Shown here: one piece after another, positions 2,024 to 64,000 of the stretch
Layout of the letters: the number at the start of each line of letters is the position of its first letter
Position numbering within the stretch: position 1 is the first letter of the stretch
Assembly (NCBI GenBank): GCA_024345305.1
Contig: BRON01000019.1
Span: 1-64,000, forward strand
Direction of reading: 5' to 3'
DNA length: 64,000 nucleotides
From: Mrakia gelida
Taxonomy: Eukaryota > Basidiomycota > Tremellomycetes > Cystofilobasidiales > Mrakiaceae
Made by a program: the position numbers and the translations under genes
Notes under the pieces: generated by a model
Database searches by the model: none
Told to the model about the DNA's origin: nothing
Seen by the model: only the letters and a program-made list of their open reading frames with translations

Positions 2024-5000
2024 ATGGCTCCCAAACTGCTCACCAAATCCCGTCCCACCTCCTCGCACAGTCCCATCCACGGCCTCCCTCCCTCCCTTCA
2101 AGTCCCTCCCGGCCCTCCTCAAGCTGTCCATCGATCGTTACTCGTGTCTTGCTCGTCTGAGGGGCTGATCGTACGAGCTTCCAACAGTGCTGGTGGTCCT
2201 GGCAGGAAGGCTGGCAAGGGAGCGCTCAAGGTCGCTTGGGGTGTGAAGGGGAAGGTGGAGGAGGTTAAGGGCGAGGAGGGGTCTGTGGTGGAAGAGGAGG
2301 AAGGGGGAGGGAAGGAGAGCGAAGAGGGAGGAGCCAAGGCAGGAGGGGAGGGGGAGGAGGAGGAGGGAGTCGAGGTTGAGATCAGGGGGATACTGGGCAT
2401 CTTGAGGTTGTGGAACTGTTAGTGTTTATCTCTCACCTCGAGCAGTGTACACAACAGCTGACTCTACGAGGTTCTGTTACAGCTGCCTATCTTCTGGTTA
2501 TCGTGGATCCTAAATCCATCGGTGCTTGTGAGTTGAGCTCGAGCTCACCAACCGCCTCTCCTTCCTTTTCATTCGAGCTCACTCCTCCCTTTTGTCCTCG
2601 TTTGCTCAGTCCCTACACCCAATCACGAAACCTACTCTCTCACCAACGTCCAAGCCATCCCTCTCACCCATCATCATCTCGCTGAGAAAGCTCTCCTCAC
2701 CCTTCGACGGTCAGCCAAAGCACCTCCTCCCTCGACTCAGCCCTCAACCGAGCCCGCTCCAGAAGGATCAGATCTCGACGACGCAGCTCGGTCAGCTTCG
2801 GGAGTGAGATGGGGAGAGGTAGTTACCCCTGGGAACGAGACAGGAGCCGAGAGTTCGAGCGGAGAGGAGGACGAGGACGAAGACGAGGAGGAGAATGAGG
2901 CGAAACGAGCCGACGGATCGTACACTTCCCTCAACAAGTCCTCAACACCGGAAAAGAAGAACAAGAAGAAGATCAACCTCAACCCTTTCTTCAAATGGAA
3001 CCCCTTCATCCCCAAACCAATCACAACCACAGCCGTCTCCTCCAACCCTCTCCATCCAACACCAGCAACCGCAACCGACCCTCTCGCCCTCCCCGACGTC
3101 CTCCCAACTCCCTCCTCTCCTACGCCCTCCGACCCTCCCATCCCACTCGTTCCTTCCTCCCTCACTCTCCCCGTCACCCTCCCTACCTCTTCTACTTCCA
3201 CTTTCACCCCAACTCCAAGCTCAACAGCCAACGCAACCCGCTCCCACCTCGAGACCAAGATCCTCACCTCCCTGATCACCCTTTTTACGTCGGGTCAGAT
3301 GTTCTTCTCCTACAACCACGACATCACTAACTCGCTCGCGGCGAAGCATCAGAGAGGAGGGGTGGATAGGATCCCGCTTTGGAGGCGGGTCGATAGGAGG
3401 TTCTGGTGGAACGAGTGGTTGGGGAGGGAGTTGATCGATGCTGGGGTGAGTCGCGTCGACTTTCCTTCTCGTCTTTTCTTTCGAACCCTTCAGTCTGGAC
3501 AAGCGCGTACTGACCTCTCGCCGTCTCCTTGTCAACAGCTCCATCCCTTCATCCTCCCCGTCATGCAAGGCTGGGTCCAAATCTCAACACTTCACGTCCC
3601 ACGCGCCCTTCCTCCCACTCCCGCCTCGACGCTTTCGGCGCCGGAACCAGCAGCTCCTTCGAACTCCTCTGCGACAGGTCTTATCGATCCTCCCATGGAG
3701 GGGAACGTTCCGGAACCAGAACCACCGGCGGTGGAGTACGAGACGGTGCCCGTTGAGTTCATCGTTGTTTCGAGGAGGAGTCGAGATCGGGCTGGGTTGA
3801 GGTATCAGAGACGAGGTGAGTCTACGAGGTTTGGATATGTTTAGACCTCGAGGGCTGACCCTCGTTTTTGGGTTTCGTGAAGGTCTGGACGACGAGGGGA
3901 ACGTAGCGAATTTCGTTGAGTCGGAGATGATCGTTCGAGCGGAGGTTCGTTTCGCTCTCTTGCTCTTTTCCTCTCGCTTCTTCCTTCTACTCTCCCCTTG
4001 CTGACTCTCAAGCTCTTCTATCCTTTTCCTTCTGACAGTCACACATCTTCTCCCACGTCCAAACTCGAGGATCGAGTGCGTCCCTCCTCTTCACTCTCGC
4101 TCGTCGCGTCCTTCGAACCCCGCTGACCTCCCTCTCCTCCCTCCTCCCTCACCCACCCCTCACCTGCCCACCCACCACAGTCCCCCTCTTCTGGTCTCAA
4201 TCCCCCTACTCAACAACCTCAGCAGCCTACGCTCTCAAACCTGCTCCCGTCCTCGATCGACCGCTCGCCATCGCGAGAGGTCCCATGGCGGTTCATTTTG
4301 ATTTCCTGAAGGAGAAGTATGGAGATCAGGTTAGTTCGCTTCCGGTTCGATGACGGGGAGGACAGGAGAACGAGAGAGCCTGATCGCAGTTTTGAGGTTG
4401 GGGGAAACAGACTGTGGTGAACTTGAGTGAAGCGACGGGGAAGGAAGCGCTTGTGACGAAGGGGTTCGAGGAGGTGCTGCTTGGGTTGGGGAGGAAGGAC
4501 GTTGAGTGAGTTGTCTTCGTTTCCTTCTTTCGAAACGGGGTGGGACATTTTCGAGCTGACTCTCCGCACCTTGTCGTCCTTTCTCTACAGCTACCAAGAG
4601 TTCGACTTCCATCACGAGTGAGCTTCAGTTCTCGACGCGTCTTCCGACTCCTCTTCTCTCGCGTTCGTTTTGAGCTGATGCCTCCTCTCCCTTCTTTCAT
4701 CCTCAGATGCAAAGGCATGAAGTTCGAGAACGTCTCCATCCTCATCGATCGCTTGAACGACACCTTCCTGAAGCAAAGCTACTTCGAAGCTGGAGGACCC
4801 GACTCCCAGAAGCTCCAATCGCAGAACGGAGCTTTCCGAACCAAGTGAGTCGGCTTGTCCCCTCCTACTCCACCTCTCGTTCGAAGCGGAGGCTGACCAA
4901 CCATCCCCTCGTTCGTCTCAAACAGCTGCATCGACTGCCTCGATCGAACCAACGTCGTCCAGTCCGCTCTCGCTCGACACGTCCTCGGAATCCAGCTCGC

Positions 5001-6852
5001 TTCGATCGGTCTCTCTCAGACGGCGGATTCGCCTCCTTCGGATATCGAGACTGTTTTCAACGATGGTGAGCAGCTGGCACCTTCTAGATCGTGTTCTCAG
5101 CTTCGAGCTGACCTCGTTGTTCGTGCGCCTCGTTCGTCTCAGTTTGGGCCAACAACGGAGACGCAATCAGTCGATGCTACGCTGGGACGTCGGCTCTCAA
5201 GGGAGATTTCACGAGGTGAGTCGAGTCTTTGAACGTTGGCTTGGAGGTCGAGGACTGACGGCTCTCTCGTTGCTCTCGTTCGTCGCAGGACTGGGAAACG
5301 AAACTTGCAAGGGATGATCAACGATGGGTTGAACTCGATTTCGAGGATGTACACGTGATTTTTCTGCGTCTCTTCCCTTTTCTCCTCGTCAACGAAGAAG
5401 CTGACTCCCACCTCCTTTCAACAGTTCCGCCTTCTCCGACTTCTTCAGTCAAGGTTTGCTCGCTTCTTCCCTCTCCCTGCCGTCCTTCCTTCGACGCGTC
5501 GCTGACCTTCCCCCCACCCTCTCCTCTCAGCCGTAATCTCTTTCATGCTCGGCCAACGCTCCCTAGCCGTCTTCACCGAGTTTGTCGAGAAGCTCCAAGT
5601 CGCTGAGCCGGCGAACCTCCTTCGACTCGCGGTTGTGAGATCGGAAGCTAGTTCGTCCCTTCCTCCTTGCTCCTTCGATCTTCGCTCGCGCGATCTCGAG
5701 CTGACGCTTCTTGGGTTCGTCTTTCGCAGTCGAGACCTGCTCTGCGAGAGTGATCAGCGAAGGGGAGACTCGTCAAGCCGGATGGACTCTGTTCGCTCCG
5801 ACGGAGATGAACGTGAAGGGAGGACAACAGTTCGAGGAGAAGGTTCTTCTGCTTGTGAGTCTCGACGCGACTCCCATCTCTTTCTCGCAAACCCTCGCTC
5901 ACGGTCCCTTTCTTTTCGATGAACGAACAGACCGCCAAAGCTCTCTACGTCGCTCGCTACGACTACGAGCTCGAGAAAGTAGTTGGCTTCACGAGGTGAG
6001 TTGCTCGACGCGTCTCCCCCTCTGTGGTTCGTTCCGAGTAGGACTGACTCGGACATTTCGCACAGAATCCCACTCGGCAACGTCGTCTCCCTCCAAAAGG
6101 GAGTCTACATCCTCTCTCCTCTCCAAGAAGCAGGTCAGGACCCGGAGGAGAACTACGGTTTCAAGGTCTCGTTCCGAGGATCCGACGATGAGACCCGGTT
6201 GGCTTCGTACTCGGTGAGTCTCGACCCTGGTTTTCTTCGCTTCTCCCTCTCGCTGACTCACCCACGCGTCCTCCGCTCGTTCCTTCCAGATGCGCAATCA
6301 AATCGAACCCACCTCCCCAACGAAACCTCGTCCCAAATCCTCCTCCCTCCGCCCTCTCCTCCTCTCCTCCCCCAAACCACCCCAACCCCCTTCCTCCATC
6401 CAAACCAACTCCCCCCCTCATTCCTCGGACTCCGAAGAAATCAAATTCTTCGCCTTCAAAGCCATCCCCCGAGACATCGTCCTGCACGGCCGAGAGCTCT
6501 CAGTGGACCGCGACGACGAAGAGCAAGACCCTCGAGGCGGAGCGCAAGGGGACGAGAAGACCTGTCATGAGGTTGTGAATGGGATCGTGGGGAGGATTAG
6601 AGGGTTGTGCTCGGATGCGGGGAGTGGGTGGGATGGGGCTGATGGGGAAGGAGATGGAGGGAAGTTCTTGAGGGAGGAGGTGAGTCAGGACGCGAGGAGG
6701 TGCTTGGAGTGGGAGAGAGAGCTGACCTTTTTCGTTCGTTTTCGCGTTCGCTTTTGTGGGGGCAGCCCATCATCTCCCTTGCTGAAGCGCAGAGTAATAC
6801 GCCTTTCTTGGCTAGGATCGAGCATGGGGTGAAGAGGTGGTTGTGGCTTTGA
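2024..6852 (+). CDS. SAC-domain phosphoinositide phosphatase with hSac2 domain (Sac2/INPP5F-like)
   Basis: This predicted inositol-phospholipid phosphatase probably acts on PI4P or related lipids on endosomal or Golgi membranes. I place 20 exons: 2024-2417, 2483-2527, 2610-3445, 3539-3815, 3883-3944, 4039-4075, 4181-4329, 4411-4505, 4591-4617, 4707-4844, 4926-5065, 5143-5215, 5289-5354, 5425-5453, 5531-5650, 5730-5854, 5931-5995, 6066-6213, 6290-6679 and 6766-6852. They sum to 1,100 aa plus stop with all phases matching. SAC landmarks are GILRLWNSAYLLVIVDPKS near residue 130, SRRSRDRAGLRYQRRG, RGSIPLFWSQSP, EFDFHHECKGMKFENV, and the catalytic TNCIDCLDRTNVVQ split by the intron before 4926. 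The C-terminal part (about 5730-6213) resembles the hSac2 domain. An acidic insert lies early in the SAC domain. The start is the first ATG of the frame; an extra upstream exon is possible. Substrate is inferred from family only. Confidence 0.9.
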
Positions 6853-7476
6853 GAGCTCTCTCGCGTTCAGTTTCGGGTTTCGTTTTGTTTTGTTCTCTCT
6901 CGCTAGTAATTCATAGATATACCCATCTAATGCTCTCTCGATACACCTATAGCTTTGCTTGTTTCCGTTCTGGATATCTATCATGACGCGACCTCAGACT
7001 GAGTGGAGGAGCAAGAGCAGGAGCAGGAGGATCAGGACGCGTCGAGGACGTGAAGTCTTCGGTTCTGGACTGAAGGGCGTGCCTGAGCGAGCTCTCCATT
7101 TTCGAGTGTTGCTGAGAAGCCTCTATAGCTGTAAATCGTACCAGCGATTCATGAAGCGTTGCGAAAAACTCGATTTTCAAGAAGGGAACGACGCGTTTGA
7201 GCCCGAAAAAGGAAAGGAAGGGAAGAGGCGTCGAGCTCCTCTCTTCGCTCCTTCCTCCGCAACCATCTCCTTCCCCTTCTCTTCTCTTTCTCGGCCCCTT
7301 CTCTCGCGCATCTACCTTCCTCAGAGGTGAGTAACTCGCACTCGCATCTCGATGAAAATCTTCTTTCTCTGCTAACGCTCTCTGTCTTCCTTCGTTGAGC
7401 TCTTCCAGAAGCTTCTCCTTCCCCCCTCCTCGACTCCTCCTCCTCCCCTTCGCCACCTTCTCTCTTCCTCCTCAAG

Positions 7477-10603: not shown

Positions 10604-11518
10604 GGCGGGCGGAGGCGTTGGGTGGGAGGAGACGCGTCGATGGTCGTTCTTTTGAGTCTTTCAGCCTCGTCGCTTTGCTCAGCATGCTACATACGTTTTG
10701 ATATCCTCTCTTTTCTCCTTCCTCCACTTTCTTTCCTTCGCTCTGCTACTTTGTATCGGTTTTCTCTCGCTGTTCTCTACTCTTTCGTTTCGTTTCTTCT
10801 CTCGTTCGTTCGCCCCTGTCTGCGTCCTCTCGTCTTTCCGTCTTTCGTCCGCTTGCATATGATTCGAGCTTCGTTGCTCCTTTTCGCTTTCGATAACCCA
10901 TGCTTCCCAGATCTCAAGAAGTAGCGAAGCTCGAAGAGCGAACAAGACGGGTGACAGATCGCGACGCGTCGAGCTTGGAGGCTAGGATCCTTTCGGCCGC
11001 CGAGTCGAGTCGGATATCGAAGAAGGCGTGTAAGAGAGTATAGACTTGTACAGCGAGCTTTTGCTTCCGTTCCTTCGGTGTCAGAACGAGAAAAGCAAGG
11101 AGAGAAGAAAGAGGGAAGAGTCGAACTTCGACGTTGACCGCCAACTCCGACGACCCTCCCTTTCCCTTCCAAACACGGCGTCTAGATGTACCAGTGCGCC
11201 AGCCGTGGATGCCAGAGTGGCGACCTCGTACGCGGTTCCATCAGCCGCATCGACGTCGCCATTTTCGGCGCCTCTCGTTGATATTACCGTTGTAGATACC
11301 GGGGTTGAAAGCGAGTATACAGAGAGATAAAGTGACCATACTTGTGTTCTGCGGGGAGATTCAGGCGAAAAGGTAGACTAGCGACGACCACGAATCGACG
11401 AAAGCAAAATGAGACAAGACGCGTCGACCTTGACCCCTTTCAACTCGCTCCTCCCTCCTCAACCCACCGACCGTCAAAAGAGAAGGAAAGAAGGATCCAC
11501 CGTTCACAACAAGATACT
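10604..11518. other. Convergent intergenic region
   Basis: This lies between the + gene ending at 9808/10603 and the - F-box gene ending at 11519, so it should hold both 3' UTRs. The first part is pyrimidine-rich on +. GACGCGTC copies occur at 10631-10638, near 10963 and near 11419. I see no gene. Confidence 0.5.
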
Positions 11519-13787: not shown

Positions 13788-16700
13788 ATGAGACTCAATA
13801 TCTTCGGCTCGATACTCTTCGCCGCTTCCCTCTTCTCTACCTCGGTTGTGCAAGCTCTCCCAAGGACACCCGTTCGAGGGATCTCGACGAGCTTGTTCGA
13901 AGCTACTGGGCCAGCAGCATCGCAGAACCTCACCGATCTCGTCACTTGGGATAACTATACTCTCAGCGTTCTTGGTCAGCGAGTCTTCATTCTCTCTGGG
14001 TAAGTTCTCCATCTCCTCTCGGTCGAGGTGCGAGAGAAAGCATCGAACTGACGCGCTTCGCTCTCGCTTTCTCCCATCTCCCGTCTCCGTCCGATCTCTT
14101 CCTCCAACCACAGCGAGTTCCATCCCTGGAGGTAGGCAAATCTTTTCGTCAATCTCTGAGACCGTCGAGACCGTTCTGACTGACTTCCGACGTCTCGTCT
14201 TCCGCCTTCCCTCCTCTCTCCTCCCTCTAGACTTCCCGTCGTCGAGCTCTGGAAGGACGTGATCGTCAAGGCCAAAGCAGCAGGATTCAACACCATCTCG
14301 ATCTAGTGAGTCTATTCTACCTCTCTCTACTCGCTCCTCCTTGTGCTCGTGAGCTGACGACCTGCTTCATCCCTTTCAGCCTTCACTGGGGACTTTGTGC
14401 GTCGTTCCCTCTCTCTCCCCGTGTAGACCATCGCTGACTTTCTTTGGTCTTCGTCAGCCAACCCTTCGAACGGAACCATCGACTTTGATCATTTCCGAGC
14501 TGTTCAGGTTCGTCTCTTCGCTTCGTTTCGGCTCGGTAGAAACTGAGCGCTGACCTCGTCTCGTCTCGCTCGACCGCTTCTCCAGCCCGTCCTGGATTTC
14601 TGCAAGGAGGTGAGTCGACTCTTCCTCTGCTCAAATCTACGAAGTGCTGATCCGTTGTGGCTGCTCCTCAGGTGGGCATGTGGATGGTCATGAGGTGAGT
14701 TCGAGCGAGAATCAAACGAAGACGACGCGTCGTCGAGTTCAGGCTGACCCCGTTGCTCCTCGTACCACAGACCTGGTCCGTACATCAACGTAAGATCATT
14801 TCTTTCTTCAGCTAACAACCTGCGCCGCTGACGTCGAACCTTCTAACTCTCTTCGAACAGGCCGAGACGACTGGTGAGTCTCGAACGAACGAAACACGTC
14901 GAGCTGATCTGCCGCTGATCCCTCTGTCCTCTCTCTCTCTTATCAGCTGGAGGCTTCCCTGGATGGTCAGTTTGGAAGCTCATTTCCTCGAAACGTCCCA
15001 GTGCTGATTTCGCACTCCCTTCGTTCGCCTCCCTCAGGGTCGTCGCGATGGAAGGAACGCTTCGAACGAACGACACTCAGTACTTTGAGGCCTGGTTCGT
15101 TCGCTTTCCCCACCTCTGCCCGCACTCAAGCTGACTCCTGGACTCCCTTCTCTTCCTTCAGGCAGCAGTACATGGACTACGTCGGAGAAATCACAGCGAA
15201 GAACCAGATCTCGAGTTCGTTCAGTCCTCCCTCTTCTCGACGCGTCTGGTCGCTCGTTCAAGGCTGACTGACCTTCCCTTTTGACCGCGTGCAGACGGTG
15301 GTCCCATCATCGCCGTCCAGATCGAGAACGAGTACGGTCAACGACTCAACGGAGAGCTCTTCCCTTCCGAGAACTGGGATTGGCCGAAGGCGATCTATGT
15401 CGAACAGCTTCAGCAGAGCCTCAAGAATCATGGATCGCAGCTTCCGACTATGCACAACGATGCTTGTGAGTCGTAATCATGCGTCACGAAGCTGACAGCT
15501 TCGCTCGCTCGACATCGAGCCCCGCGCTCAAGATTGGAGCGTTCGAGGCGCGTCGTCTGACTCGCTCTCTATTTTCTCTTGTATCACAGCTCCTCGAGGT
15601 GACTTGTGAGTCCTTACTCAATCGTCCCTTAGCTCTCAAAGGGCGATCGCAGCTGATCGTACCTTGTCCTTCCAGCATCAACGGTCCAGGAGAAGTCAAC
15701 GTGAGTCGAGCTTCGCCTTCTCCCTCGAGTTCCTCGACGCGTCTCGTTTCATCGACTTACTTCGCTCTTTCTTCTCTTCTCTTCTCTCTCTCAGATCTAC
15801 GCTTTCGACACCTACCCTCAATCCTTCGACTGCTCCAATCCCTACGGCTGGAAGGATCTTCCAACTTACTACCACCCCACTCACAAGGCTCAGAACCCCG
15901 AGGAGCCGTTTTGGATACCTGAAGCTCAAGGAGGAGCGTTCAACGCTTGGGGACAGAAACAGAATTACGACGCTTGCAGCAGTAGGTCCTCATCTTGCTC
16001 GTTCTGTCGGGGAGATCAAAGCGTCGCTGACTCCATCTCGTCGTTCATCTTCCCCCAGTTCTGACTGGACCTGTTCGTTCTTCCTCTGTCCTCGTTTATT
16101 TCGCGCTCTGGCTCACTTATCTTCGCTTTCACCGTCATACAGGACTTCGAGCGAGTTTTCTACAAGGCCTTCTGGGCTGCGAACGTCAAGATGCTGAACT
16201 GTGAGGCGACGCGTCGACATCGAGATCGCGACGAGCCATCGTCCGAGCTGAGCTTTGCTTTCCCTCTTTTTCTTACGTAGACTACATGCTTCTCGGTGGT
16301 ACCTCGTGGGGAGGTCTTGCGTTCCCTGGTGTCTACACCTCGTATGATTACGGTTGCGCCATCGCAGAGTGAGTTCGTTCCAGCTCAGCCTTCCTTCGCT
16401 CGATCTTCTGCTGACTCTCTGTCCTCCTATACCCTTTCAGGAATCGACTCCTCACCCCCAAGTTTGACGAGCTCAAGCTCCAGGGTCTCTTCCTTCGGAG
16501 CGCGAGGGAGTTCTACAAGACGGGTCAGTCTCCGCTCCATCTCGCCTGTTCTCGAGCCACGCGTCGTCTCGCCTCGAACTCACCCCGACCTCTTCCTCGT
16601 CTCTCAGACTGGATTGCCGACAGCTCTTCGTCGTTCTTCCCCGAGGACGTCTTCGTCACCTACCTTCGCAACCCCGATACCGCAACTTCGTTCTATTTCG

Positions 16701-19643: not shown

Positions 19644-19651
19644 GGAGTGGG

Positions 19652-19659
19652 GACGCGTC
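19652..19659. repeat. GACGCGTC element after the beta-galactosidase stop
   Basis: The palindrome starts 9 nt after TGA 19641-19643, inside GGACGCGTCGAG. It is one member of the dispersed family reported in the findings. Confidence 0.8.
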
Positions 19660-24562: not shown

Positions 24563-25107
24563 TCAGCGGGAGCTCATCGTCGTTGGGAGGGAGACTCCAG
24601 GGAGGGAGGGGTTGAGACGTTCGAGGCTCGGTTTGAGAGGATGTTCGGTGCGAAATTGCTAGGCTAGAGTGGCAGATCGTTCGATTAGCTCGGTATGCAC
24701 TCAACGTCCGCGTATCTCGTATTTGTCTCTCGCCGGAAAGAGCTGAGCGAGCAAGCTCAGCCAAAGACGCGTCGACCCCTCGCCTCGTCGTCCTCTGATC
24801 TCACGAGCAGAGAACTACAGAGACAGATCGAAGTGCATCAGCATCGTAGGCAGCGAGTACGCAAGAAACGAGCCTCATCCACCCTCCTCCAACCGTCAAG
24901 ACCCAGAGCTGATCCCTCGCGACGTCGTCGTTCTTCGCTCCATCCTTCCCGATTCATCCCCTGACCCTCTACACCACCCTCTCACCTCCCTCAGTCTCGA
25001 CCCAAACTCTTCACACTGTGCATGAGCCAATCCAGCGTCGTCTCATCCACCCCTCTCGTTCCGCTCACATCCAACCTCCCAATCCTCGCACACCTCCCCA
25101 TCTCGCA
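24563..25107. other. Interval upstream of the MYND gene and downstream of the F-box gene
   Basis: Probably contains the unresolved first exon of the - MYND gene (candidate ATG at 24764, minus strand) and the 3' UTR of the F-box gene. One GACGCGTC copy is near 24766. No other gene seen. Confidence 0.4.
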
Positions 25108-48450: not shown

Positions 48451-48893
48451 GATCGAGGTTGGGAGGATTGGGGGGGAGGAAGAAGAAGGGACAGGAGGGA
48501 GGGAGGGAGGTGGGTGGCTGAGAGGGAGCGGTGTAGGAGTTTAGGTTGTATCAGTTCCGGCTCGGTTCGGTTTGGTTTCATGATCTGCTTTTCTTTTATC
48601 TGGATTGGAGAGCCAGAAAGGCTGCTGCTGCTTTCTAGGGGAGATTAAGCTGAAAGCGTGATCCCGACGCGTCGATCGAGACGGAACAAAGTCTTCGAGC
48701 GTTTGCGAGAGAGAGTCAGAGTCGTGATCGTTCAACGTCATATTATCAGTCGAAGAGGGGCAGTTTGATGTCGAAGATGTGCTGCATGAAGGAAGAGCCC
48801 TTCAAAATAAACACGAAGTCAGCGAACGGGTCCGCCGACGCGACGAGCTCATGTAGACGTTCGAAAAACGAGCTCACCTTCCGCTGAACCTCC
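48451..48893. other. Convergent 3'-UTR interval
   Basis: Between the DUG3 stop and the stop of the - MYND gene. GACGCGTC at 48666-48673 lies near its middle. No gene seen; small - frames are open but lack splice or family support. Confidence 0.5.
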
Positions 48894-50474
48894 TCACCAC
48901 GCAGGCTTGAAACAGAACTTCTTGTGCTCCGACCAGTGTAGCGCTGGTGAGCGAAAAGGTTCGAACAAGACGCGAGTCAGGCTTCGATCAATCTTGTCGG
49001 ACTCAAGACGACGCGTCAACTCAGGACGAACCGACTGAGCAGTATCGGACTGATTCACACTGCAGAACAAGACAAGATGTCAGTCAGATACCGAGGATGG
49101 TCGAGTAAAACACTGGAAGACTGACCTTCGAACACGCCGACAAGCTGGTTCCCTCGCAAATGCACGGCGCCGGCAAACCTCCATGCTCACAAAGCTGCAA
49201 CCCAGACTTCAATCCGCACTCGTACCAAGGGAGATGGATAGCGTGATCCGCTGAAGCGAATCCTTTGAACGGAATCCTGCAGTCTTCTCCTTCGTCGAAC
49301 CTCAAGACGGAGAGGAGGGGTGCGACTTGATCCAACGCGTCCTCGACGACGACTCCGTTCGTGAGCGTCTGGTAGACCTCGAGGGCTTGGATGGATGGAG
49401 AAGAACCAATGATCTTCTTTCGGTTGTAGGAGGTGGGAAGGACTTTGGAGGAGAGGTTGACGACGAGACGTTCGAGGAGGTCTGCGACGGAGGTGATCAC
49501 GTCCGAGGGCGAGAAGGGGTTGAAGAGGTTGAAGACGTCGAGGGCTTTGGCGGCGTGGAGGATAAAGGTTCTAGTGGAGAGGCAGAGGGAGTAGAGTCTC
49601 GAGATGTCTCGGATCCATTGGTCGAGATCGTCGAGAGAGTTGAAGTCCTGACGCAGCAAAACCAAGAGGAGTGAGCCCGACGACGAGCGGCGAGCGAAGG
49701 CGACGGAGAAAGAAGAGCGTGAACGGACCGTTTTCTCGAGCTCTTCGACTTCGAGAGTAGCGAGAAGCTCTACCTCGTGATCCAGTATCTCCTCGAGCTC
49801 CGGTTTTTTCGGGTACGCATGTAGGAGCCCAAAGGGAACTGGAACTCAGCCAGGTCTCGAAAGACAACGGCGAAAGGAGCGTTGGTGTATTTCCACTCCC
49901 GAGCCACGTCGAGGTAGAGGTCCATGAACTGAGGGAAGTAGGAAGCGGCGAACCGAAGCTGGAAAAACGACGGGGAAGGTCAGTTTTGCGTTCAACGATG
50001 GGAAGAACCGAGTGTGAGAGGACGAGCGAGAGCGACGTGAGGGAAGATGTCAGGCTCCAATCCGCTTTTCGGAGAGGGATGGATGTCGTTGAGAAGTTGA
50101 CTTAGCTGTTGAATCAACGATCAGTCAGATCACTCTTCTCGAGGAAGAGAGGAAAGGGAGAGAAAGGAAACTTACCTCAATCTCCTTCTCCCTCCCAGTC
50201 AAGAACCTGAGCTCTGCGATCGTCGAGCTCTCTCCCTCCTTATCGAGTCCAAAGATACGAGCGATTTCGGAAGCAGCCTCATCGACGGTGAGGATCCTGG
50301 ATGGTATGTTTTGGAGTGTTCTGGGGAATAGAGGGTCGAAGGGAGTTGTAGTTTGCCTCCAACTAGAAGGAGGGCTCGAGCTGGCGTTTCCTCCGAATCG
50401 AAGGGTCGAAGCTCAACCTCCCTTTTGACCCCAATCCACGACTGTAGTGCGAAGCTTTCGACTCCTTTGATCAT
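48894..50474 (-). pseudogene. Protein with C-terminal MYND finger, frame broken at an A6 run
   Basis: Exons in order: VDEAASEIARIFGLDKEGES and ELRFLTGREKEIE, LSQLLNDIHPSPKSGLEPDI, LRFAASYFPQFMDLYLDVAR with FRDLAEFQFPLGSYMRTR, then KKPELEEILDHEVELLATLE, SLDDLDQWIRDISRLYSLC, and the C-terminal zinc finger CEHGGLPAPCICEGTSLSA with ACSKCESVRYCSV and LHWSEHKKFCFKPAW. The finger lacks the usual xCQ after YCS. At the T6 run on + (49804-49809) the frame slips: one more A on the coding strand would join MRTRKK to KPELEE. As it stands a TAG follows. The start is unresolved; ATG at 50474 (MIKGVESFALQSWIG) is one candidate. Function unknown; similar layout to the MYND gene at 62884. Confidence 0.6.
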
Positions 50475-51999
50475 GTCAGAGGTCAGTAGAGGCTTTTCAT
50501 ATCTCACTCTGCACTCATCGCTTATTTTGCACTTTTTCTTTTGCTTGAGAAGCCGCCTCGACTCGTCTTGCCGTGGGATGTCCTCCTTCACGTCGTCCAC
50601 GTCGCCGACCCTCCAGCTCTCGCCGCTCTCTCTCGAGTCTCGTACGATCTACTAGTAGAAGCGGCGCCTCTTCTTTACCGCTCTATCGAAATCAAAACCT
50701 CGAAGCAGCTCGTGCTCCTGCTCTGCGAGTCCTGGCAGTACAGCGAGGTGAGCTCGCTCGCTCCTTCCTTCTCCTCCCTCCCTCCTTCTTCCTCCCTCCT
50801 CCATACTTTCTCTGACCATCTTCTCTGTTCCTTCTTTTCTGGGACTTCTCTAGTACTCCCGAAGCACCCGACCCAACCGAATCACCTCCCTTTTATCCCT
50901 CTCCCAAACCCTTCATCTCACCTTCGACTTCGCCTCCGCCTCCATCACCCAGACCTTCCTTCGGCTCGACACCCTCGTGCCTTACTCGCGATTCGCTACC
51001 CTCCAGCTCCGACTCAAGACCCTTACGATCCTCTTCAACTTCCAAACCCCAGCGATGGATCTCAGCAGTCTTCAAACAAGCATTCTCCCCAAACTCAACC
51101 CCAAGGTCGTTTCATTCACGGTCGGTCAGCCTCAACCTCCTCTGGGTCCCATCGCCAATCCTTCTTCTTCGACCGCCTCGCCGACGATATGGAGAGAGCG
51201 AGGACCTATCGGTCTACCCTGGAAGAAAATGGACCGGCTCGTCGTCCACGGAAACCTACCCTATCCAACTCCAACCACGATGGGCGCACCCCCTCCTCAC
51301 GAAGTCGTCCTCGATCTCCGGTCTAGCGAGGAGCACGACGGGTTCATGCGAAGGAGCATGGAGAGGGCATGGTCGATTCAGGGACCTCTTGCGAGAGCTC
51401 GGTTTGGAAGGAGGGTGATGGAGTTGGGGATGGCAGGGAAGGGAGGGAGATTGACGTTGATGGTTGGGACGGAGGAGGAGAAGGCGCGGTTGGAGAGTGA
51501 GATAAGGCTGCTCGAGGAGCGGTATAGGGATTATCTGGATGTAGAGGTGTGTGGGACGAGCTAGGCTTGACTGAGAGGGTGGGATAGATTGTCGAGGAAC
51601 AGAGAGAGTTTGGATTCGAGCTCGACGCGTCACCTCCGGTCAATACTTCCCTTACTCTCTCTCCTTTCCCCCGCTGACGAGGCCTATAACTGACCTTCCG
51701 CACTTCTATTTTTCCTTGATCTCCGCAGGTATTGGACCCAACCCTCACCTCCGTCGTCGACGGCTCGCGAATCGTCTCCTCTCACCACGTCCTTCGACGA
51801 CTCTCGCACGACCAGCCGGCCTACCACACATCGATCGGAACGTACATAGGCTGCCTGCGATGGATCCCCTCGTGGAGCTTTCCAGGAGGTGAACGCGCGT
51901 TGGACTTTTCTCTCCGTCCGTCGCGTCGAGATCGAGTTTTCGCTGACCCTTCTTTGTGTCTTTTCCCTGATAGTCCAGATACACAGTCACCGTAGATAA
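50473..51999 (+). CDS. F-box-like protein
   Basis: Exons: 50473-50481 (MSE), 50553-50747, 50854-51546, 51729-51888 and 51974-51999, all in phase. The N-terminus RLVLPWDVLLHVVHVADPPA then LAALSRVSYDLLVEAAPLLY is a divergent F-box (LPWDVLxxV). The body is beta/leucine-rich (LSLSQTLHLTFDFASASITQ, LQLRLKTLTILFNFQTPAMD). If the 51547-51728 intron (GTGTGT...CTGACC...CGCAG) is not used, the frame simply ends at 51564 (VEVCGTS). The spliced form continues VLDPTLTSVVDGSRIV and SIGTYIGCLRWIPSWSFPG. I prefer the spliced form. The first exon is only three codons and rests on splice logic. Confidence 0.65.
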
Positions 52000-52449
52000 A
52001 TTGCACACACGGATCCTCGATATGACTCTTCTCATTTTGAGGATCCTCATCGCGTTTTCGCCTTCACAGCACCGAAAGCTCGACGCGTCTCGTCCTCGCT
52101 TCCTCCACATTCTCTCTCTTTCTCTCCTTTCCCACATCTGCAGTAGCCGAGAAAGTCATTAAGAAGCGATCGAATGGGAAGGAAGCAAAAAGCAGAGCAA
52201 TCTAGGTGAAAGCGAGAGCGAGAGCCGCGACGAACGAAGAAAAGCAAAGCAGCAGCAAGAAAGAAGAAGAAAGTAGCAAGAGGGCACTGATGAGAAGGGA
52301 AGGGAGAACAGAACAGTAAGAAGACAGAGGGAACGAACGAACCAAAGGAAACCCGACGGAAGCAAAGGGGAGTAGAGAGAGAGAAAGGGAGAGGGGGGGG
52401 GGGGGGAAGAAAGCGAAAACAAAACGAAAACCGACCCAGTCGACGCGCC
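52000..52449. other. Convergent 3'-UTR interval with G-run
   Basis: 450 nt between two converging genes. GACGCGTC at 52082-52089 lies 83 nt after the F-box gene stop. The right half is very purine-rich on + (pyrimidine-rich on the - gene's sense strand), with the G14 run. No gene seen. Confidence 0.5.
52393..52406. repeat. Mononucleotide G14 run
   Basis: Fourteen consecutive G on +, i.e. C14 in the 3' UTR of the - gene ending at 52450. Length likely varies between isolates or reads. Confidence 0.85.
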
Positions 52450-55400
52450 TCACTCCTCCTCCTTCTTCACCTCCCCCCGTTCCCCTTCCTCAGACTCCTC
52501 AAAGAACCCACTATCCCGTCCCCTCTCGGGTCCTTTGACCCTCTTCCCCTCCTCGCTCGCACTAACAGCCCAACTCCCTTTCCTCTTCCTCCCACTCGCC
52601 TCTGGCCCCCCTCCTCCTCCATTCCCATCCGGCGTCGTCGCAACCCCCCACATCCCCGACCCGTTCCCTGGCGTAGCAGGCGCGAGGCCCAAACTCCTCG
52701 TGAGACTCAAGCTCTGAGGGGAGGAGAGCTGGAAGAACGACGAAGCGGGAGGGGAGGATCCTCCCAAATGGGTTGTTCGAGTGGACGAACCGGGAGCAGC
52801 GTAGGCTGAAGAGGTGGAGTAGCGGTTCTGGGATGCTTGGCTGGACGGAATGGCGTTGAGGAGGGTGGAGTTGTTGGAGGGTGTGGAACTTGGATGTCCG
52901 TGGGAGGAGGAGGAAGACTTGAAGGGAGTTCGGGTTGAGGAGACGTTGGAGGTGTAGGATTGGATGGAGGTCATTCCGAGGGGAATGGAGGGTTTGAAGG
53001 GTGTTGGGTGGAAGATGGGGAGGTGGGTTGGGGTTGCTGTTCCTGATCCTGAGATGAGGGAGGTGAGCGGTGTGGAGGAGGGACGACGGTGAGGGATTTG
53101 GGGAGGGATGAAGAGTGGTTCGAGGGGGAAGTCGCGTTTGAGTGAGGAAGGACCGGTTTGGTTATCGACTGGGGAGGACGAAGGACTGGAAGCGACGAGG
53201 TTGTTGCTGTAGTGGCTGTTGAAGGGTTTCGAGTCTTCGCGTTCGTCGTCGTCGTCCTCGTCTGACGCTTCGTCGTCGCGTCGATCCTGGACGTGTCTCG
53301 AAGAAGACGAGGCTGCTCCCCAAAGTCTCGAGGGAGTTCCCGATCCAGAAGCTGCTAACCCTCCCATTCCGAGCGCCCGACCCCGTCCCTTCCCTTCGTA
53401 CGCGACCTCCATGCTCCTCTTCACGTCCTCTCCCCACCTCAACCCTCCGATCGAAGGTCTCGAACTCGACGACCCAGCTCCACTCCCACCCATCATCCTC
53501 GCGGAGGGAGTAGGAGTTCCCATCGGAACGGGCTTCGACCTGACCTGCGAGAACCTCGATGACGACGCGTCGTTCGAGAGATGCTCGACCGGCGAGGAGA
53601 GGATACCGTGGTTGGTAGGAGGGGAGCGACCGATCATTCCTGGCGAAGGGGGCGACGACTGAAGGAAGTCCTCCTCGGTTCGAGCGGATGGGAAAGCGGG
53701 GGAGGACTCGAGGTTGGTTTCCTTGGACGAGAAAGGGAGGGGAGCTGGAAGAGGGGAGAGAGCAGAGGACGCTCGACTTCGAGGGATGGGGATGGATTCG
53801 GTAGTCGACGAAGGAGAAGCTTTGGGAGGTCCAACGAGAGAGGGTTGGCGTGACCGACGACCCATCCCTGGGAGAGCTTTGGGAACGACGGGGAAGAGGG
53901 TTTGACGTTCGAGTTTCCGTCGCTCCATCTCTCGTTCCTCCTCCTCCTCGTAGTCGTCTTCCTCCTCCTTGAACGTGCGAGAGTAGTCGAACGTCGCTGG
54001 CTCCTCGTACTTGATGGGAGATGATCGATCCTCCTCCTTCACCCTCGTCGCCGAAGACTCGTACCGAGCAACGCCAGCGTCCATCTCGGAAGTCCAGACC
54101 TCCTTCGACGGCGGCGACGCGTCCTCCTCGTCCTCCTCGCTCTCAGCCTCGTACTCCAACGTCGAAGGCTTGACTGGAGAGCTCCCGTTGGCTCTCAAAG
54201 CCATCAACAATGCTGCTGCTCCGTCGTCCTCGACCCCTCTGGCCATTCCGACGAGAGGAGCGTCGTCTCGACCTCGCGAAGGGAAAGACGATCGTCGTTG
54301 AGGAGAGAAGCCTGGCATCGTCATTTGCGGACGAGCCTTGTGAGGAGAGGTGGATCCGAGGGCTGAGAGAGGTCGACGAGGGACGTCGAAGCGAGCTGGG
54401 ACGATGGGAGGGGGAGGGTAGTGGGTGGAAGGGTGGTACGTCGGGGTTGGGTAGTAGTTGGAAGGGTGAGAGGTGTACTGAGGAAGGTTGCGAGGATGAA
54501 CGGCGTCGTAGGGGAGTCGAGCGAAGACCTGCTGATTCTGAGGTTGACGCTGGCTGGGAGGAAGAGCATAGTGCTGATGCTGGAAGGGCGGCGCCGTCGT
54601 CGTCGAGTCGTCTGGCGAACCTTCCTCCTGATCTCCTCCCTCCTCCGACTCGTAGTTCGCCTCTGCTCCCTCTCCCGACTCCTGGCGTCTCCGCTGCTGA
54701 TCCGATTCCTCGTGAGATGCAGGCTCCATCGGTTCCTTCCTCTTCGTCGACGACCACGGTCCAGAAGCTCGGATGGGAGCAGGAGCGACCTTCTCCTTTC
54801 CCTTTCCCTTCGCAGCAGCGACCTTCTTCTTAGGGGGAGCTCGACCAGCAGCTTTGGCAGGAGCTTTCCGTTTCCCCTTGGTTCCCTCGACGATGGCCTC
54901 CTCCTCCTCCTGAGCTTCCTCGAGATCGTCGGCTTCTTCCTCCTCGTGAATGACATCCTCGTCCGAGCCTGAACGGTTCGCCTTCTGGAGAGCTCTGTAT
55001 CGATCAAAACAGCACGAGCGGGAAGGTCAGCTCGCGCGAGACGGAGGGGCGAGAGAAGGAAGGGAACGAAGAAAGCGACGACGAAACGAACCGTTTCTTG
55101 CTCGCCCACTTCCTCTTACTCTCCAACGACCTCTCCCTCCTCTCCTCGTCCGTCTTGGGTCGTCCTTCATCTGCTCCGATCCAAACCGAACAGACGAAAA
55201 AAGTCAGCTCTCGTCCCTCTTTCTCCTCGTCCTCAACCACGAAACGAAAGAAAGAGCGAGGGCGACGAAGGAAAGCTCACTCTTATCCCACCTCGTCCTC
55301 CTAGGCTGATCACTTAACGGGATCCCATGCTTATCGCACAGATGTCTCCTCCAGATCGATCGTGCATGCTTCCCTTTGTAGACTGTTAAAATCCAAACGC

Positions 55401-56674: not shown

Positions 56675-57167
56675 CCCTGCTGCGAGAGACAAGGGTGTAT
56701 GGATAGAGAAGGGGAAGGGAGGCGGGCTGGAAGGAAGGGAGTGAGGGAGTTGGAAGGTGAAAGGGTCGCGAGCGAGCGTGTCTTCTCTCCCTCCCTGCGG
56801 ACGACTGATGAGCGAGCACTTTGAGACGAGACGCGTCGTGTTTGGAACTCGTCCGTTCGTCTTCTTTTCCTTCGCTCAGTTCAGAGCACAGATGAGAAGG
56901 AGAACAGACGTGATTATTAGGTGGTAAGTAGCGAGGACGAGAAAGATAACGACGAGGAAACAAAAGGGGGTATCGAAAGCAACGAGAAAAGGGATATCGA
57001 AAGCAAGGGAGCCAGCAAGAGTCAAGAAAATATGCAAGTGTGTCCGTGAAAAAGGATAGAGTCGAAGAAAAATCGAAGAGTGAAAGGGAGAGAAAGGAAG
57101 AAAACAGTCCATGAGTGATCGCAATCGACGCGACGCGTCGTCCGTCAGTCCTCGCTCGCTCGCTCGC
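56675..57167. other. Interval between two - genes
   Basis: Holds the leader of the 52450-56674 gene (GACGCGTC near 56831) and the 3' UTR of the DUF7598-like gene (CGCT tetranucleotide repeats about 57152-57168 and GACGCGTC at 57132-57139, 29 nt past the stop). A possible 5'-UTR intron acceptor (TCTCGCAG) lies just upstream of the 56674 start. No gene seen. Confidence 0.5.
57132..57139. repeat. GACGCGTC element after the DUF7598-like gene stop
   Basis: Found inside CGACGCGACGCGTCG, about 29 nt downstream of the stop at 57168-57170 (minus strand). Confidence 0.75.
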
Positions 57168-59606: not shown

Positions 59607-62599
59607 GCTCAGCAACCGCACGGACGACACATCATCTTCCCTCTCCTCTTCCCTGTTTCAACTTCGCTTGGACTCGAGGACTCACCGCTCAGCTCCAACA
59701 GCTCATAGCTCCCGCCGACATCGCTTCGACCGCGGTCCACAACATCCTCGAGTCGCTGTTTCGTCAAGCTCTCCCTCCATCCCCCCGACTCCTCTGCGAC
59801 TCGCTCTTCCCCAACGGCTGCCGGTCTCCAGGACCCTACGCTACCTGTGATAGGCGAGGCTACGACTTACCAATGCGCTTGCGACAAAAAGGTTGCAACG
59901 TCGAAGGCCTTTTGGAGCTCGTCACGACGGTCGCGAGGTGAGTTTCAAGTCGCGTCGTCGTTCTTTTCATTGACCTGACCTTTTCTCCTCTCCTTTCCTC
60001 TCTCCGTCTACACAGCGCGAATCAAACACACAGCCTGATCCCTGGTCCGTATCATCTACCACATACTTCCTTCTCTCCCTCGCCCTTCGAAATCTTGCCT
60101 CGCCTCCTCTTCACCCCGAGACTCCCTCGACCCCTTTCCCTGCTTCCTCTCCGAACTCCGACCGCCCATCAATCCAGTGCTCCCCAGCTCCTTCCGTTCA
60201 CGGCAGTTCATGTAGCAGTCCCCGCTGCTATCGCCGTACGATCCGAGTAGAGGGAAGGATTGCTGAAGGTCGAGCACCGCCGTCCTCCATGACTTCTTCC
60301 TTCCCTCTGCAGGATCTAGACACCTTCAACGAGCATCAAGCCTTCTCTCTCCTCGACAACAAGCTATGGATCAACATCGAGATCAAACTGGCTCTGCGTA
60401 CGACATTAGGTGAGTTCTCATCCGTCCTACAGGCAAGAGCGGCGAACATGGCGAAGTCAAACGAAGAAAAGAGTGGAGCCTGACTGCCTTACCCTCCCTC
60501 GTTCTTCCTTCCTTACTCAAGACGAGTAGAGCAAGGTCAGACCATATCTCATCTACACCCTTCTACCATACGCCTGCGCTCGCTGACTCGCGTCTTCTCT
60601 CCTTGCAGACGAACGCAAACCGAACTCTTCCTCCTCGCCTTCACCTCCTCCTCATCTCTCCGACGAAACCCCTCGCTCAAAAGGGAGGTCATTCGACTGG
60701 AAGAGCAAGTTTGAGTACATCACCGCTGCGCCCAAGGAGGATTCTGTGTGGACGTTCTCCGCTCGGGTGAGTCCCTTCCTCGTTTCTTTCGTCGCGTCGA
60801 GACTTGTCAAAGGAAACGAGCTCGAGCTAACCTCCACTTTGCTTCCTTGCGCTCCCTTCCGTCCCCCTTTCTCGACCCTTGTAACGACAGATTTTCCTCA
60901 TCTCCATCGCAGGCTTCGTCCTCGTGACGGTCTCCATGCTAGCAGCAGCGATGCGACTTCAAGCTCTCGCTGCGAAGCATCAGGAGTCAGGGATCGATTC
61001 CAACTCGAGGTCCATTGAGGGTTCGCTGCTCTACACGGCTTATCTTCTGCAAGCTCAGTCGATTGTTTGCGAGTGAGTGGGTTCCGTGGATCTTCGTTGC
61101 TAGGAAGAACGCGACGAGAGCACGATGAGGATCGAGGACGCTGACCTTGTTCCTGTTCGTTCGTGCTTCGTTTCAGACTCGTCCTCCTCGGTGCAGCCTA
61201 CTTCGCCATCGTGACGCAGAACCTCGTCGCTGTTTTGGCTGTCCTTCTTTTCAATATCTACCTCGTGGTAGGGGGATGTGAGTCACAGCGATCTCTCTTT
61301 CTCTGCTCGAGATCAGGACGAGACGAAGGCTGACCTCGACGCGTCGACCTTCCTTCTTTTCAGTCATCGAAGCAGGTCAACGAAACTATCTCCTCGCGAA
61401 CGACAACGGACCTGAGCTCGCAACTGTTCGAAGGATCCTTTGGGCGATCCCTGCGATTGATATCTGGTGAGTCTTTGTGAACTGAGGTGACGTGGAGAAG
61501 GAGAGACAGAGGGATCGACTCCGACTGATGCGACGCGTTCTTCCCCAGCTTTCACTTCGGCTCGGACTGGGCTGCCTTCCGACTATACAAGGAACTCGGA
61601 TGGACTGCGTACAAGAAGTCTTCGGCTGACGTAGCCATCGGAGGTCTTCTCCAACGCGTCTTGATCCTTCGAGCGACCTCTTTCGTCAGTCCGTTTATCT
61701 CTCCCCACGCCCTTTCCCCACTGACACTTCCCTCTCCTCATCCCACAGTTCAGCGGAGTCTTCATCCTCATCACCTTCACCTCAACTCTCATCCTCCTCG
61801 TCGACTGGATCCCACTCTTCACCACTGAGACGGGGAAAGGTCCCTCAACTCGTTTCCGCTGCCCTCGAGGTCCTCCTACCCGCTATCTTCGCGGTCCTCT
61901 TCTTCTCCGGAGCTTTGGTACTGCTGAGACTGGGTGTGAGGCAGGAGCGGAGGCCGTTCGTCTGGGTATCGATCGGACTGCAGGTGCGTCACGTCGCTTC
62001 TCTTTCGGTCTTCCTCTTTCCCTTTCCGAGTCGAACTCACTATCTCGTTTCTTCACTCCCTTCAGGTAGCTAGTCTATCTCTTCATCTCACCACCATTGG
62101 GATCTTCGCTCCTGTTCTTCGACTGACGTCCGAGATCATCGCGTCGTTGGGCGAGACATGTTCGTCTGCCTCCTTTCGTCTCGTCGCTTACGATCTCCGT
62201 CACTCGAGCTGACCACCCTTCCCCTCCACCACCTCTTCTGCAGCCGTTGGCAAGGCCGGAGCTCTCTCAAACGAGTGGAAAGTCGTTCGTCCCCCTTCGT
62301 TGATCCCTTTCGACGCGTCCCCTTCGCTCGCTGACTAACCTCCCCCTCTTTCGTCTTTCAGTTCTTCCAGTTCGCAGTCGCGACGGTACTCCTCACCGGG
62401 AATATGGTGATGACAGCTCTAGTCCTTCGAGGGTTCGGGAAGGGATTGAAAGAAAGGGAGAGGCGTGAGTCGATTCAGCTTAAGTTTCATTTCGTCGCGT
62501 CCTTTCGAGACTCGCTGACCTTTCCTCTGCTCAATGGGGGCGTTGAAAATAGAACTTGCGAATCCAGGGCCAACGCAGGAGCTAGACTTGTTTGATTGA
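59607..62599 (+). CDS. Multi-pass (about seven-span) membrane protein, unknown; one frame break
   Basis: The N-terminal part is extracellular-like with cysteines (SLFPNGCRSPGPYATCDRRG, QKGCNVEGLLELVTTVARSA). After a soluble stretch (RKPNSSSSPSPPPHLSDETP) come membrane segments: IFLISIAGFVLVTVSMLAAA, LVLLGAAYFAIVTQNLVAVL with AVLLFNIYLVVGVIEAG, FSGVFILITFTSTLILLVDW, VLLPAIFAVLFFSGALVLLR, VASLSLHLTTIGIFAPVL and FAVATVLLTGNMVMTALVL. It ends PGPTQELDLFD (TGA 62597-62599). Near 61833-61840 the frame shifts by one: VDWIPLFTTETGK continues only as VPQLVSAALEVLL in the next frame. A 40-nt intron from 61800 is an unlikely alternative. The first exon and start are not resolved. Confidence 0.55.
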
Positions 62600-62883
62600 A
62601 TGGGAGCGTTTGGTGGTTTTGATCGATTCGAGGAGGAAGAGCGCTTCGCTACGACTGGATTTGTCTCTCGTCGGATTGCAAGAATGACGATAGCAGACGC
62701 TGGTGAGACGGGGGTGATATCAACCCCGCTCATACATGCTGAGACAGAGAGCTTAGGCTCGTCTTTCTCTCGACGACGAGACGGAGGTCGAGAAGGACGA
62801 GAGGAACCAGCCGTCGCCGATACGGTTCGTCCTCCTCCCTCCAACAGGTTGGATGCGCGTTTCGAACATCATCGATCGGGTAT

Positions 62884-64000
62884 CTACCAAAGAGTCTTCT
62901 TGCAAAAGGCCTTGTGTCGCTTCCAATCCTCCGTCTGATGCTCTGCGAAAGGGACGAGAGGAACGCGACGAGGGAGACGAGGTCAGACCGAGGCTGTAGT
63001 TTCGAAAGAGTCAAACCGGACGAGGAGGAACTCACCGGGAGAGCAGTATCGGACGGCGTGACACTGGATGAGCAGAGGCATACGGAAGAAGGTCAATGGC
63101 GAAGAGAGCAAAGGTCGAGCACGAAAACGAGACGTCGATTCACCCTCCCGCACTTGAGCAGCTCCTTTTTCACCATCCCTCGCTTCCCGCACCCACCTTC
63201 CCCGTCTCGTCCTAGCTCGCACACCGCCCACGAGAGACTGCCCACCAAGCGAGGTGTTAAAAGTGTCTTCTCTCCTTCCATCAGCATCCCTACGTTGTAC
63301 ATGAGACCGATCGCGGGGTTGAATGTCGCTTGGTGATCAGGCTCGAGCATGCGGAGCTTGGTTGACAAAAACCCTCCAAAGTCACGGTGTTCGTTCCGAA
63401 GGCTGGTGATCTTCCGTCGGAGGAGGCGAGCTGAGGGGGTTTGGAGGAGGATCTTGAAGGAGCGGAGGCGAGAGGGGTCTGTCGAGAGCGTTTCGAAGAG
63501 GAAAGTGTTGCGAAGAGGGATACACCAGTTGCCGAGGTGGTGGGAGTTGTTGAGAGCATCCTGCCGGTAGAATTGTACGCACACTGAATGTTTAGATCAG
63601 CTTGGCTTATGCAGAAGGAGGGATGAGAAGAAGGAACGGACGCGACGCGTCGAGGAGTGGAGGGAAGAAGCGAAATGGGCTCGATGGAACTCACAGGTCC
63701 AGAAACAAGGTGAAGTAGCTTCGGGAAGACCTTCGAATAGGCTTCGATTTGAGCTGATAGCACCAGATGTCCCTTGTCCTGATCTCGGAGGAATCTTCCG
63801 TAGTCGTTGGTGAAGGAGAAGACTGAGAGGAAAGCGTTCCAAGGGTAGATCTCTCCGTCGGAGAGAGCGATTCGGAGGGCAGTGATGAATCGAGGATGCA
63901 AACTCTGTCACCTGGAGAGAAGAGGGGACGAGATAGATGAAACGTATCAGTAGGTCGAGATAGAAAGGAGAGAAGGATTCAAGGAGCTCGAGGTCGCCTT
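62884..64000 (-). CDS. Protein with C-terminal MYND finger, partial at window edge
   Basis: The gene enters from beyond 64000. Visible parts: FITALRIALSDGEIYPWNAF, SFTNDYGRFLRDQDKGHLVL, then after an intron (63697-63566, containing GACGCGTC) DALNNSHHLGNWCIPLRNTF, TDPSRLRSFKILLQTPSARL and MVKKELLKCGR-CHAVRYCSP. The last exon is EHQTEDWKRHKAFCKKTLW ending at TAG 62884-62886. The MYND finger is complete except that the usual ECQ reads EHQ (Cys to His). Layout and size suggest a relative of the 48894-50474 gene. The likely role is protein interaction through the finger; the body is unknown. Intact in the visible part. Confidence 0.7.

Follow-up and report, generated by a model that had tools for sequence, protein, structure and literature searches.

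The described systems closest to GACGCGTC, an 8-bp palindrome dispersed in the genome of the basidiomycete yeast Mrakia gelida (GCA_024345305.1) and analysed here from the first 64,000 nucleotides of contig BRON01000019.1 (C19:1-64000, the window), are the linker words of fish, the methylated linkers of algae, the cyanobacterial palindrome HIP1, and the MluI cell-cycle box (MCB). Linker-specific 6-mers of medaka and zebrafish occur at the nucleosome repeat within hypomethylated domains (Nakamura et al. 2017, PMC5607494); for medaka, there are several words with a spacing of ~200 bp, confined to hypomethylated promoter domains and derived from DNase data. Medaka and Mrakia have in common short words spaced beyond base composition at the nucleosome repeat (a presumed one in Mrakia) and lying in linkers (again presumed), with a sequence preference that is the reverse of the yeast rule. 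In contrast to medaka, the Mrakia lattice has a period of 164–168 bp, extends genome-wide, is scarce upstream of genes, is dominated by one palindrome, and was obtained from sequence alone; in particular, exact copies are not confined to promoter domains and are rarely met in the 400 bp that precede start codons. The fungal host, the genome-wide extent, the upstream scarcity, and the dominance of one palindrome distinguish it from the known nucleosome-period linker words. Among the literature titles listed, none describes GACGCGTC or a fungal lattice of this type, although this does not prove the finding unpublished, and we know of no eukaryote in which a sequence-written chromatin ruler with a cognate linker-binding protein has been described.

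In 2014 Huff and Zilberman reportedly found DNMT5-linked periodic CG methylation in algal linkers. The point of likeness with this methylation (reviewed in PMC9246332) is CpG-bearing sequence between nucleosomes (here presumed) on a genome-wide lattice; the algal signal is CG methylation, whereas that of Mrakia is a specific palindrome in a genome with a CpG observed/expected ratio of 0.98 and no DNMT5 recognised by a search of limited sensitivity to intron-split exons. HIP1 (GCGATCGC), the iterated palindrome of cyanobacteria (Elhai 2015, PMC4390886), resembles GACGCGTC as a GC-rich 8-bp palindrome present about once per 1–2 kb with deviations mainly at the outer positions; HIP1, however, is bacterial, tied to methyltransferases, ascribed to a proposed repair bias, and without a nucleosome lattice, while the Mrakia word belongs to a basidiomycete yeast and is GACGCGTC, not GCGATCGC. 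The MCB, ACGCGT, is bound by the MBF/Mbp1 family (PMC5448814) and shares its sequence with the core of GACGCGTC, and an Mbp1-family protein is encoded in the Mrakia genome; MCBs act in the promoters of G1/S genes, in contrast to GACGCGTC, which is scarce upstream and has a nucleosome-like spacing.

Here GACGCGTC is proposed, with a rough probability of 0.47, to be a nucleosome-linker element, with a sequence-specific protein as its probable binder, which would assist in the phasing of nucleosome arrays. The weight of DNA sequence versus that of remodelers and barriers in setting nucleosome positions inside genes has long been debated, and a nucleosome-period comb formed by a single 8-mer makes the role of sequence directly testable in this yeast. 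If the proposal is true, a draft nucleosome map could be drawn from sequence without experiment, there would be a lead to a linker-binding factor, and introns and 3' ends would be subject to a new constraint; chromatin layout would perhaps be readable from raw sequence.

Abundance and variants of the palindrome

The original prediction reported a dispersed palindrome with about 35 copies in the window where one or two were expected, and this holds: all 25 coordinates that it listed carry exact GACGCGTC, and the window contains 37 copies versus 1.84 expected under a dinucleotide model, the runner-up among 8-mer palindromes, CGAGCTCG, having 13. In the whole genome (34,857,517 bp in 25 contigs) the exact copies are 15,647, one per 2.2 kb, versus ~753 expected, and a control word made of the letters of GACGCGTC in reverse order occurs 87 times; genome-wide expectations were scaled from motif-masked second-order models of a 264-kb sample composed of the window and C1:200001-400000. 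A genome-wide count near expectation and a loss of the non-coding bias had been named beforehand as the outcomes that would speak against the claim, and neither was found.

GACGCGTC is preferentially preceded by C and followed by G, and its half-site is GACGCG. Deviations from the palindrome concern the outer positions, the second most and the first next; for the outer-change words the genome-wide counts on both strands are 12,422 (GACGCGAC) and 6,695 (AACGCGTC), versus ~1,532 and ~1,136 expected, respectively. Counts of the CpG-decay words are 968 versus ~1,109 expected for GATGCGTC and 1,421 versus ~1,175 (1.2-fold) for GACACGTC. Since the outer words are far above expectation and the decay words near it, the outer bases are partly relaxed, and for those two decay words there is no sizeable pool of CpG-decayed copies.

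The 164–168 bp comb and the words that follow it

Genome-wide and without use of gene models, pairs of exact copies with start-to-start distances of 151–181 and 317–347 bp number 644 and 594, while those at 68–98, 234–264, and 8–38 bp number 35, 27, and 85 (the last 2.6-fold below uniform), each against 218 expected under uniform placement; the peak-to-trough contrast is 17- to 24-fold. In the 264-kb sample no neighbouring copies are closer than 144 bp and the gaps form groups at 144–200, 284–353, and 455–499 bp. Scored over 100–1000 bp, the distances within palindrome pairs have their peak at 166 bp (z 8.1 for 184 pairs up to 1.5 kb; z 5.2 for the palindrome pairs of the C1:1-195 kb list alone), and those from palindrome to variant have theirs at 168 bp (256 pairs up to 1.5 kb, z 9.6). 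Merging GACGCG and CGCGTC in the sample gives 489 sites and 890 pairs with a period of 166 bp and z 15.5. The same signal is present in the window (z 7.2 at 164 bp), in C1:200-400 kb (z 13.9 at 167 bp), and in C1:8-68 kb, a block outside the 264-kb sample (88 sites, z 6.5 at 166 bp). Mean peak positions of 166, 330, 502, 670, and 834 bp correspond to a slope of 167.6 bp, and the order decays with distance, the mean resultant passing from 0.42 at 100–600 bp to 0.12 at 2.1–2.6 kb; the fitted periods of the long-range order table drifted to the scan edges and were discarded.

Chance, base composition, an intron/exon rhythm, or an RNA or splicing element would account for the fact that most copies of the sample (92/147) fall in introns, and to this group of explanations we give virtually no chance. 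Placements keeping the intron, exon, and flank classes reach at most z 5.3 in 400 trials, and jittering the position of every site within its segment never exceeds z 7.6 in 400 trials, against the real 15.5, so that nulls keeping introns and exons fail to yield the comb. Composition is opposed by the 37 copies against 1.84 expected and by the enrichment over class-specific Markov models in the 264 kb, which is 40-fold in introns, 44-fold in other non-coding DNA, and 7-fold in coding sequence (CDS). The splice words CTGAC and GTGAGT, finally, have no comb by eye and a weak lattice phase (z 2.2 and 1.1).

The words following the comb were ranked among 985 6-mers by their periodicity: CGCGTC is first (z 23.4), followed by CGACGC (15.9), CGTCGA (9.4), and ACGCGT (9.2), while for CTCGAG, TTCGAA, and GACGTC, all outside the 30 most periodic, inspection by eye revealed no comb. 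A lattice score was also built from GACGCG sites, the own 100 bp being excluded; on three rolled lattices the z of 6-mers ranges from -4.2 to 4.4, whereas on the real lattice CGCGTC has 18.8 and CGAACG 10.9. The relative density on/off lattice is 2.07/0.11 for the palindrome, 1.82/0.32 for GACGCG, and 1.62/0.51 for CGAACG, and site density is 9.1-fold higher on than off lattice in CDS, 6.7-fold in introns, and 7.7-fold in flanks. Off-lattice DNA is characterised by TGCA and CACC words and by TA, CA, and AT steps.

The on:off counts are 56:0 for GACGCGTC (n=147), 22:0 for AACGCGTC (n=51), 39:4 for GACGCGAC (n=96), and 60:16 for other half-sites (n=202). ACGCGT lacking the outer G/C does not lie on-lattice (1:2, n=12), and the half-sites with a changed core give 19:21 for GATGCG (n=109), 30:30 for GACGTG (n=152), 18:9 for GACACG (n=74), 56:33 for GAGGCG (n=305), and 66:38 for GAAGCG (n=320). 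The lattice preference is therefore strongest for good matches and weak for core-changed half-sites. As a separate observation, CGAACGAA, CGAACG, and GAACGA are in phase with GACGCG on the 166-bp lattice of the 264-kb sample.

Introns, flanks, starts, and stops

Gene models were produced by a self-trained finder, trained on the 264-kb sample, in which they define 868 introns (84 kb), ~135 kb of CDS, and 44 kb of other DNA; false introns and fused genes are likely among them, and the genome-wide pair counts are independent of them. The 18 models of the window are without in-frame stops, and Pfam domains were found in 2/2 window proteins tested. The predicted introns, with GTGAGT donors and CTGAC branch sites, are very dense (205 in the window; median of 89 bp in the sample). 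According to these models 20/37 window copies are in introns, 13/37 in other non-coding DNA, and 4/37 in CDS, the 147 copies of the sample being divided into 92, 35, and 20. The locations given by the original prediction agree with the models for 22 of its 25 copies; those at 38563, 48666, and 63644 are assigned instead to a predicted intron, a predicted CDS, and a flank. The copies of the window, all exact GACGCGTC and unstranded, are the following.

296..303, non-coding flank
1175..1182, non-coding flank
1459..1466, non-coding flank
4634..4641, predicted intron 4618-4706
5493..5500, predicted intron 5454-5530
6007..6014, predicted intron 5996-6065
7036..7043, after the predicted stop at 6852
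10631..10638, non-coding
10963..10970, non-coding; previous copy 332 bp away (2.0 repeats)
11418..11425, non-coding; previous copy 455 bp away (2.7 repeats)
14724..14731, predicted intron
15239..15246, predicted intron; previous copy 515 bp away (3.1 repeats)
15736..15743, predicted intron; previous copy 497 bp away (3.0 repeats)
16208..16215, predicted intron; previous copy 472 bp away (2.8 repeats)
18838..18845, predicted intron
19652..19659, just past the predicted stop at 19643
22095..22102, predicted intron
22788..22795, predicted intron
24766..24773, predicted intron of a - strand gene
35260..35267, non-coding, after the predicted stop at 35250
36589..36596, predicted intron of a - strand gene
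38563..38570, predicted intron, - strand, in a model that may fuse two genes; originally placed after a stop
40554..40561, predicted intron of a - strand gene
42206..42213, predicted CDS
44864..44871, predicted intron
47491..47498, predicted intron
48666..48673, predicted CDS, - strand; originally placed after a stop
49010..49017, predicted intron of a - strand gene; previous copy 344 bp away (2.1 repeats)
51624..51631, predicted intron
52082..52089, non-coding, after the predicted stop at 51995
53564..53571, predicted CDS
54116..54123, predicted CDS
56830..56837, non-coding
57132..57139, non-coding, downstream of the predicted - strand stop at 57168
61338..61345, predicted intron
62312..62319, predicted intron
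63644..63651, non-coding flank by the gene model; originally placed in an intron

The bias toward introns and 3' regions that had been claimed is real as a non-coding preference and is not special to introns, flanking DNA being equally enriched; since the two enrichments are alike, GACGCGTC is no intron or splicing signal. A splicing link is also not borne out by the CTGAC-type branch motif, which is similarly frequent in introns with the site (70/92) and without it (553/776), and an intron or splicing signal was rejected. Placement between the 5' site and the branch, originally noted as usual for intron copies, holds for 55/70 versus 48.5 expected by intron length (p 0.12), which is about what length alone produces. 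Asymmetric variants in introns have orientations of 49:16 and 19:6, a bias that is not significant after composition (p 0.09 and 0.16), and on this result an RNA element was rejected; the RNA hairpin or dimer reading is likewise unsupported, given the equal enrichment outside introns and the lack of a significant position bias relative to the branch. In contrast, the alternative offered with it, a DNA-level signal, is supported by the equal enrichment of introns and flanks, by the absence of a significant strand bias of the variants, and by the 164–168 bp lattice spacing. Rfam at the gathering threshold and ARAGORN with bacterial settings gave no match in the window.

The proposed preference for positions after stop codons is real in comparison with upstream regions: 27/35 intergenic copies of the 264-kb sample are closer to a stop than to a start (27 after stops versus 8 before starts, p 1e-4), and within 400 bp the exact copies are 23 after stops versus 3 upstream of start codons (p 4e-5). 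GACGCG sites within the same distance number 48 in 16.8 kb after stops versus 25 in 17.6 kb upstream. These sites show a phase relative to the stop codons of the gene models (Rayleigh 11.5 at 166 bp, 264-kb sample).

The distribution among gene regions also bears on an origin without function, in which a mutation, repair, or modification bias limited to linkers creates and preserves GACGCGTC, nucleosomes being placed otherwise; for HIP1 of cyanobacteria Elhai proposed such an origin in a DNA process (PMC4390886). The deviations of GACGCGTC in its outer positions resemble those of HIP1, where the first and eighth positions deviate most and the centre least, and the HIP1 model of about one site per kb compares with one GACGCGTC per 2.2 kb. 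The equal enrichment of introns and flanks, with CDS still at 7-fold, agrees with this origin. Such a bias might, however, cluster sites within a linker, and the pairs at 8–38 bp are 2.6-fold below uniform, although short linkers may also limit them; moreover, exact copies are few in upstream regions, where DNA tends to be most accessible. We know of no eukaryotic repair system of such specificity, and the explanation, while to be taken seriously, is considered unlikely.

A proposed linker element and its candidate binders

Fungal nucleosome repeats are near 165 bp. Because of this value of the period and of the on/off contrast, the 164–168 bp lattice is interpreted as the nucleosome repeat, with GACGCGTC presumably in linker DNA at about one copy per occupied linker. 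An array of linker sites is suggested by the period, by the scarcity of half-period pairs, by an order fading over ~2 kb, and by the TA/CA-richer DNA lying between the sites; a recognised element is preferred to a composition effect because of the scarce second copies, the core specificity, and the upstream scarcity. A putative sequence-specific DNA-binding protein would recognise GACGCGTC and, once bound, would keep nucleosomes off the palindrome; this exclusion would help to phase the array along gene bodies and 3' ends, and selection on the binding of the protein could maintain the sites. The broader proposal, that a palindromic linker element devoted to this task, together with an architectural protein recognising it, writes the whole-genome nucleosome lattice of this yeast as a ruler over gene bodies and 3' ends, sparing promoters, is more doubtful and is advanced as a possibility.

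Several results weigh against a protein-bound linker element. The linker placement we infer from the period and the on/off contrast only, and the lattice score is anchored on the motif itself. Unrelated words have weaker combs (AACGAA z 7.3, CTCCTC z 7.0), a second word, CGAACGAA, is on-lattice (37:5, n=108), other CGCG words give 124:39 (n=541, 3.1-fold), and motif-masked CpG has a density of 1.10 on and 0.90 off lattice. Upstream of starts the exact word is 8-fold scarcer, but GACGCG sites are only ~2-fold scarcer there and are unphased to start codons (Rayleigh 0.2 at 166 bp, 264 kb). Off-lattice pairs at 27, 111, and 134 bp are present in C1:1-195 kb, the 58 flank-flank pairs peak at the scan edge of 150 bp with z 4.2, and the 65 CDS-CDS pairs have z 3.1. 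A 10-bp rotational signal, looked for beside the sites and in pair distances, was not found.

The residual lattice preference of core-changed and generic CGCG words, in particular, makes a dedicated binder slightly less favoured and intrinsic exclusion slightly more so, the latter meaning that GACGCG, CGAACGAA, and similar CpG-rich words resist wrapping and are selected for regular arrays with no dedicated protein. The presence of several linker words beside the palindrome, the 3.1-fold ratio of the other CGCG words, and the general CpG/TA contrast between lattice phases are consistent with this mechanism, as is the statement, in the medaka study, that most linker 6-mers match no known factor (PMC5607494). 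Placement is nevertheless far stricter for the perfect palindrome and the variants nearest to it than for core-changed or generic CGCG words, and ACGCGT deprived of the outer G/C fails to lie on-lattice (1:2, n=12), a distinction sharper than bulk stiffness suggests; intrinsic exclusion is likewise unlikely.

A further explanation is linker CpG methylation as in the DNMT5 algae, by which the methylated CpGs of GACGCGTC would disfavour nucleosomes. The general CG enrichment of linkers typical of the DNMT5 type is found in the presumed linkers (the 1.10 versus 0.90 of motif-masked CpG), and the on-lattice excess of motif-masked CpG recurs in each of CDS, introns, and flanks. Raised genome CG frequency, also a feature of DNMT5-type linker methylation, is absent, CpG observed/expected being only 0.98 in 264 kb; the decay word GATGCGTC has no excess and GACACGTC just a 1.2-fold one; and the enrichment is context-specific, CCGA and CCGG being slightly off-lattice (z -2.2 and -2.5). 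The genome contains a C5-cytosine methylase gene with small exons at C10:832022-833668 (L052; PF00145, E 5e-36), whose best solved-structure match is DNMT1 (6x9i, E 1e-19); besides this clear gene, the PF00145 search of the genome picked up a single weak stretch, at C10:110526. The gene model stops just past the methylase domain and its 5' part may be missing. In a homologue search length-limited to near the query size, the matches listed have 27–34% identity and the named ones are bacterial or generic. DNMT5, a C5-methylase with an SNF2 ATPase, was not recognised in a genome search whose sensitivity is limited by intron-split exons, and methylation as the cause of the lattice is regarded as quite improbable.

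The other protein of interest is an Mbp1-type KilA-N protein with ankyrin repeats at C12:73286-73471, matching the Mbp1 DNA-binding domain 4ux5 with E 4e-41; its best named relatives are in Mrakia frigida (96% identity) and then in Phaffia rhodozyma (68%), as found with a query that carried 24 stray residues; these matches place the genome in Mrakia or close to it, within the Cystofilobasidiales (Tremellomycetes). This protein could be the linker binder. The core ACGCGT and the presence of this gene are also what a reading of GACGCGTC as a cell-cycle promoter site, an MCB of the MBF/Mbp1 transcription factor, would require, a very improbable one in view of the 3 exact copies within 400 bp upstream of starts against 23 after stops, of the 15,647 copies of the genome, and of ACGCGT without outer G/C, which is not on the lattice (n=12). 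In the Mbp1-type gene (L051, - strand, predicted start 2329), GACGCGTT and GACGCGTC are located ~250 and ~400 bp upstream, at L051:2583-2590 and 2725-2732, which stands out against the general scarcity of exact copies upstream of genes.

Some exact copies depart from the comb. Eight of the 35 genome-wide pairs at 68–98 bp are identical 85-bp spacings on C22, apparently a repeat, at C22:10005-13048 and 223632-228113, several of them 509 bp (about three lattice units) from the next copy. Triple runs of GACGCGTC with off-lattice distances (74–97 or 246–261 bp) are found at C19:164325-164516, C19:65044-65558, and C1:3185697-3185867, and may mark repeats or a different chromatin.

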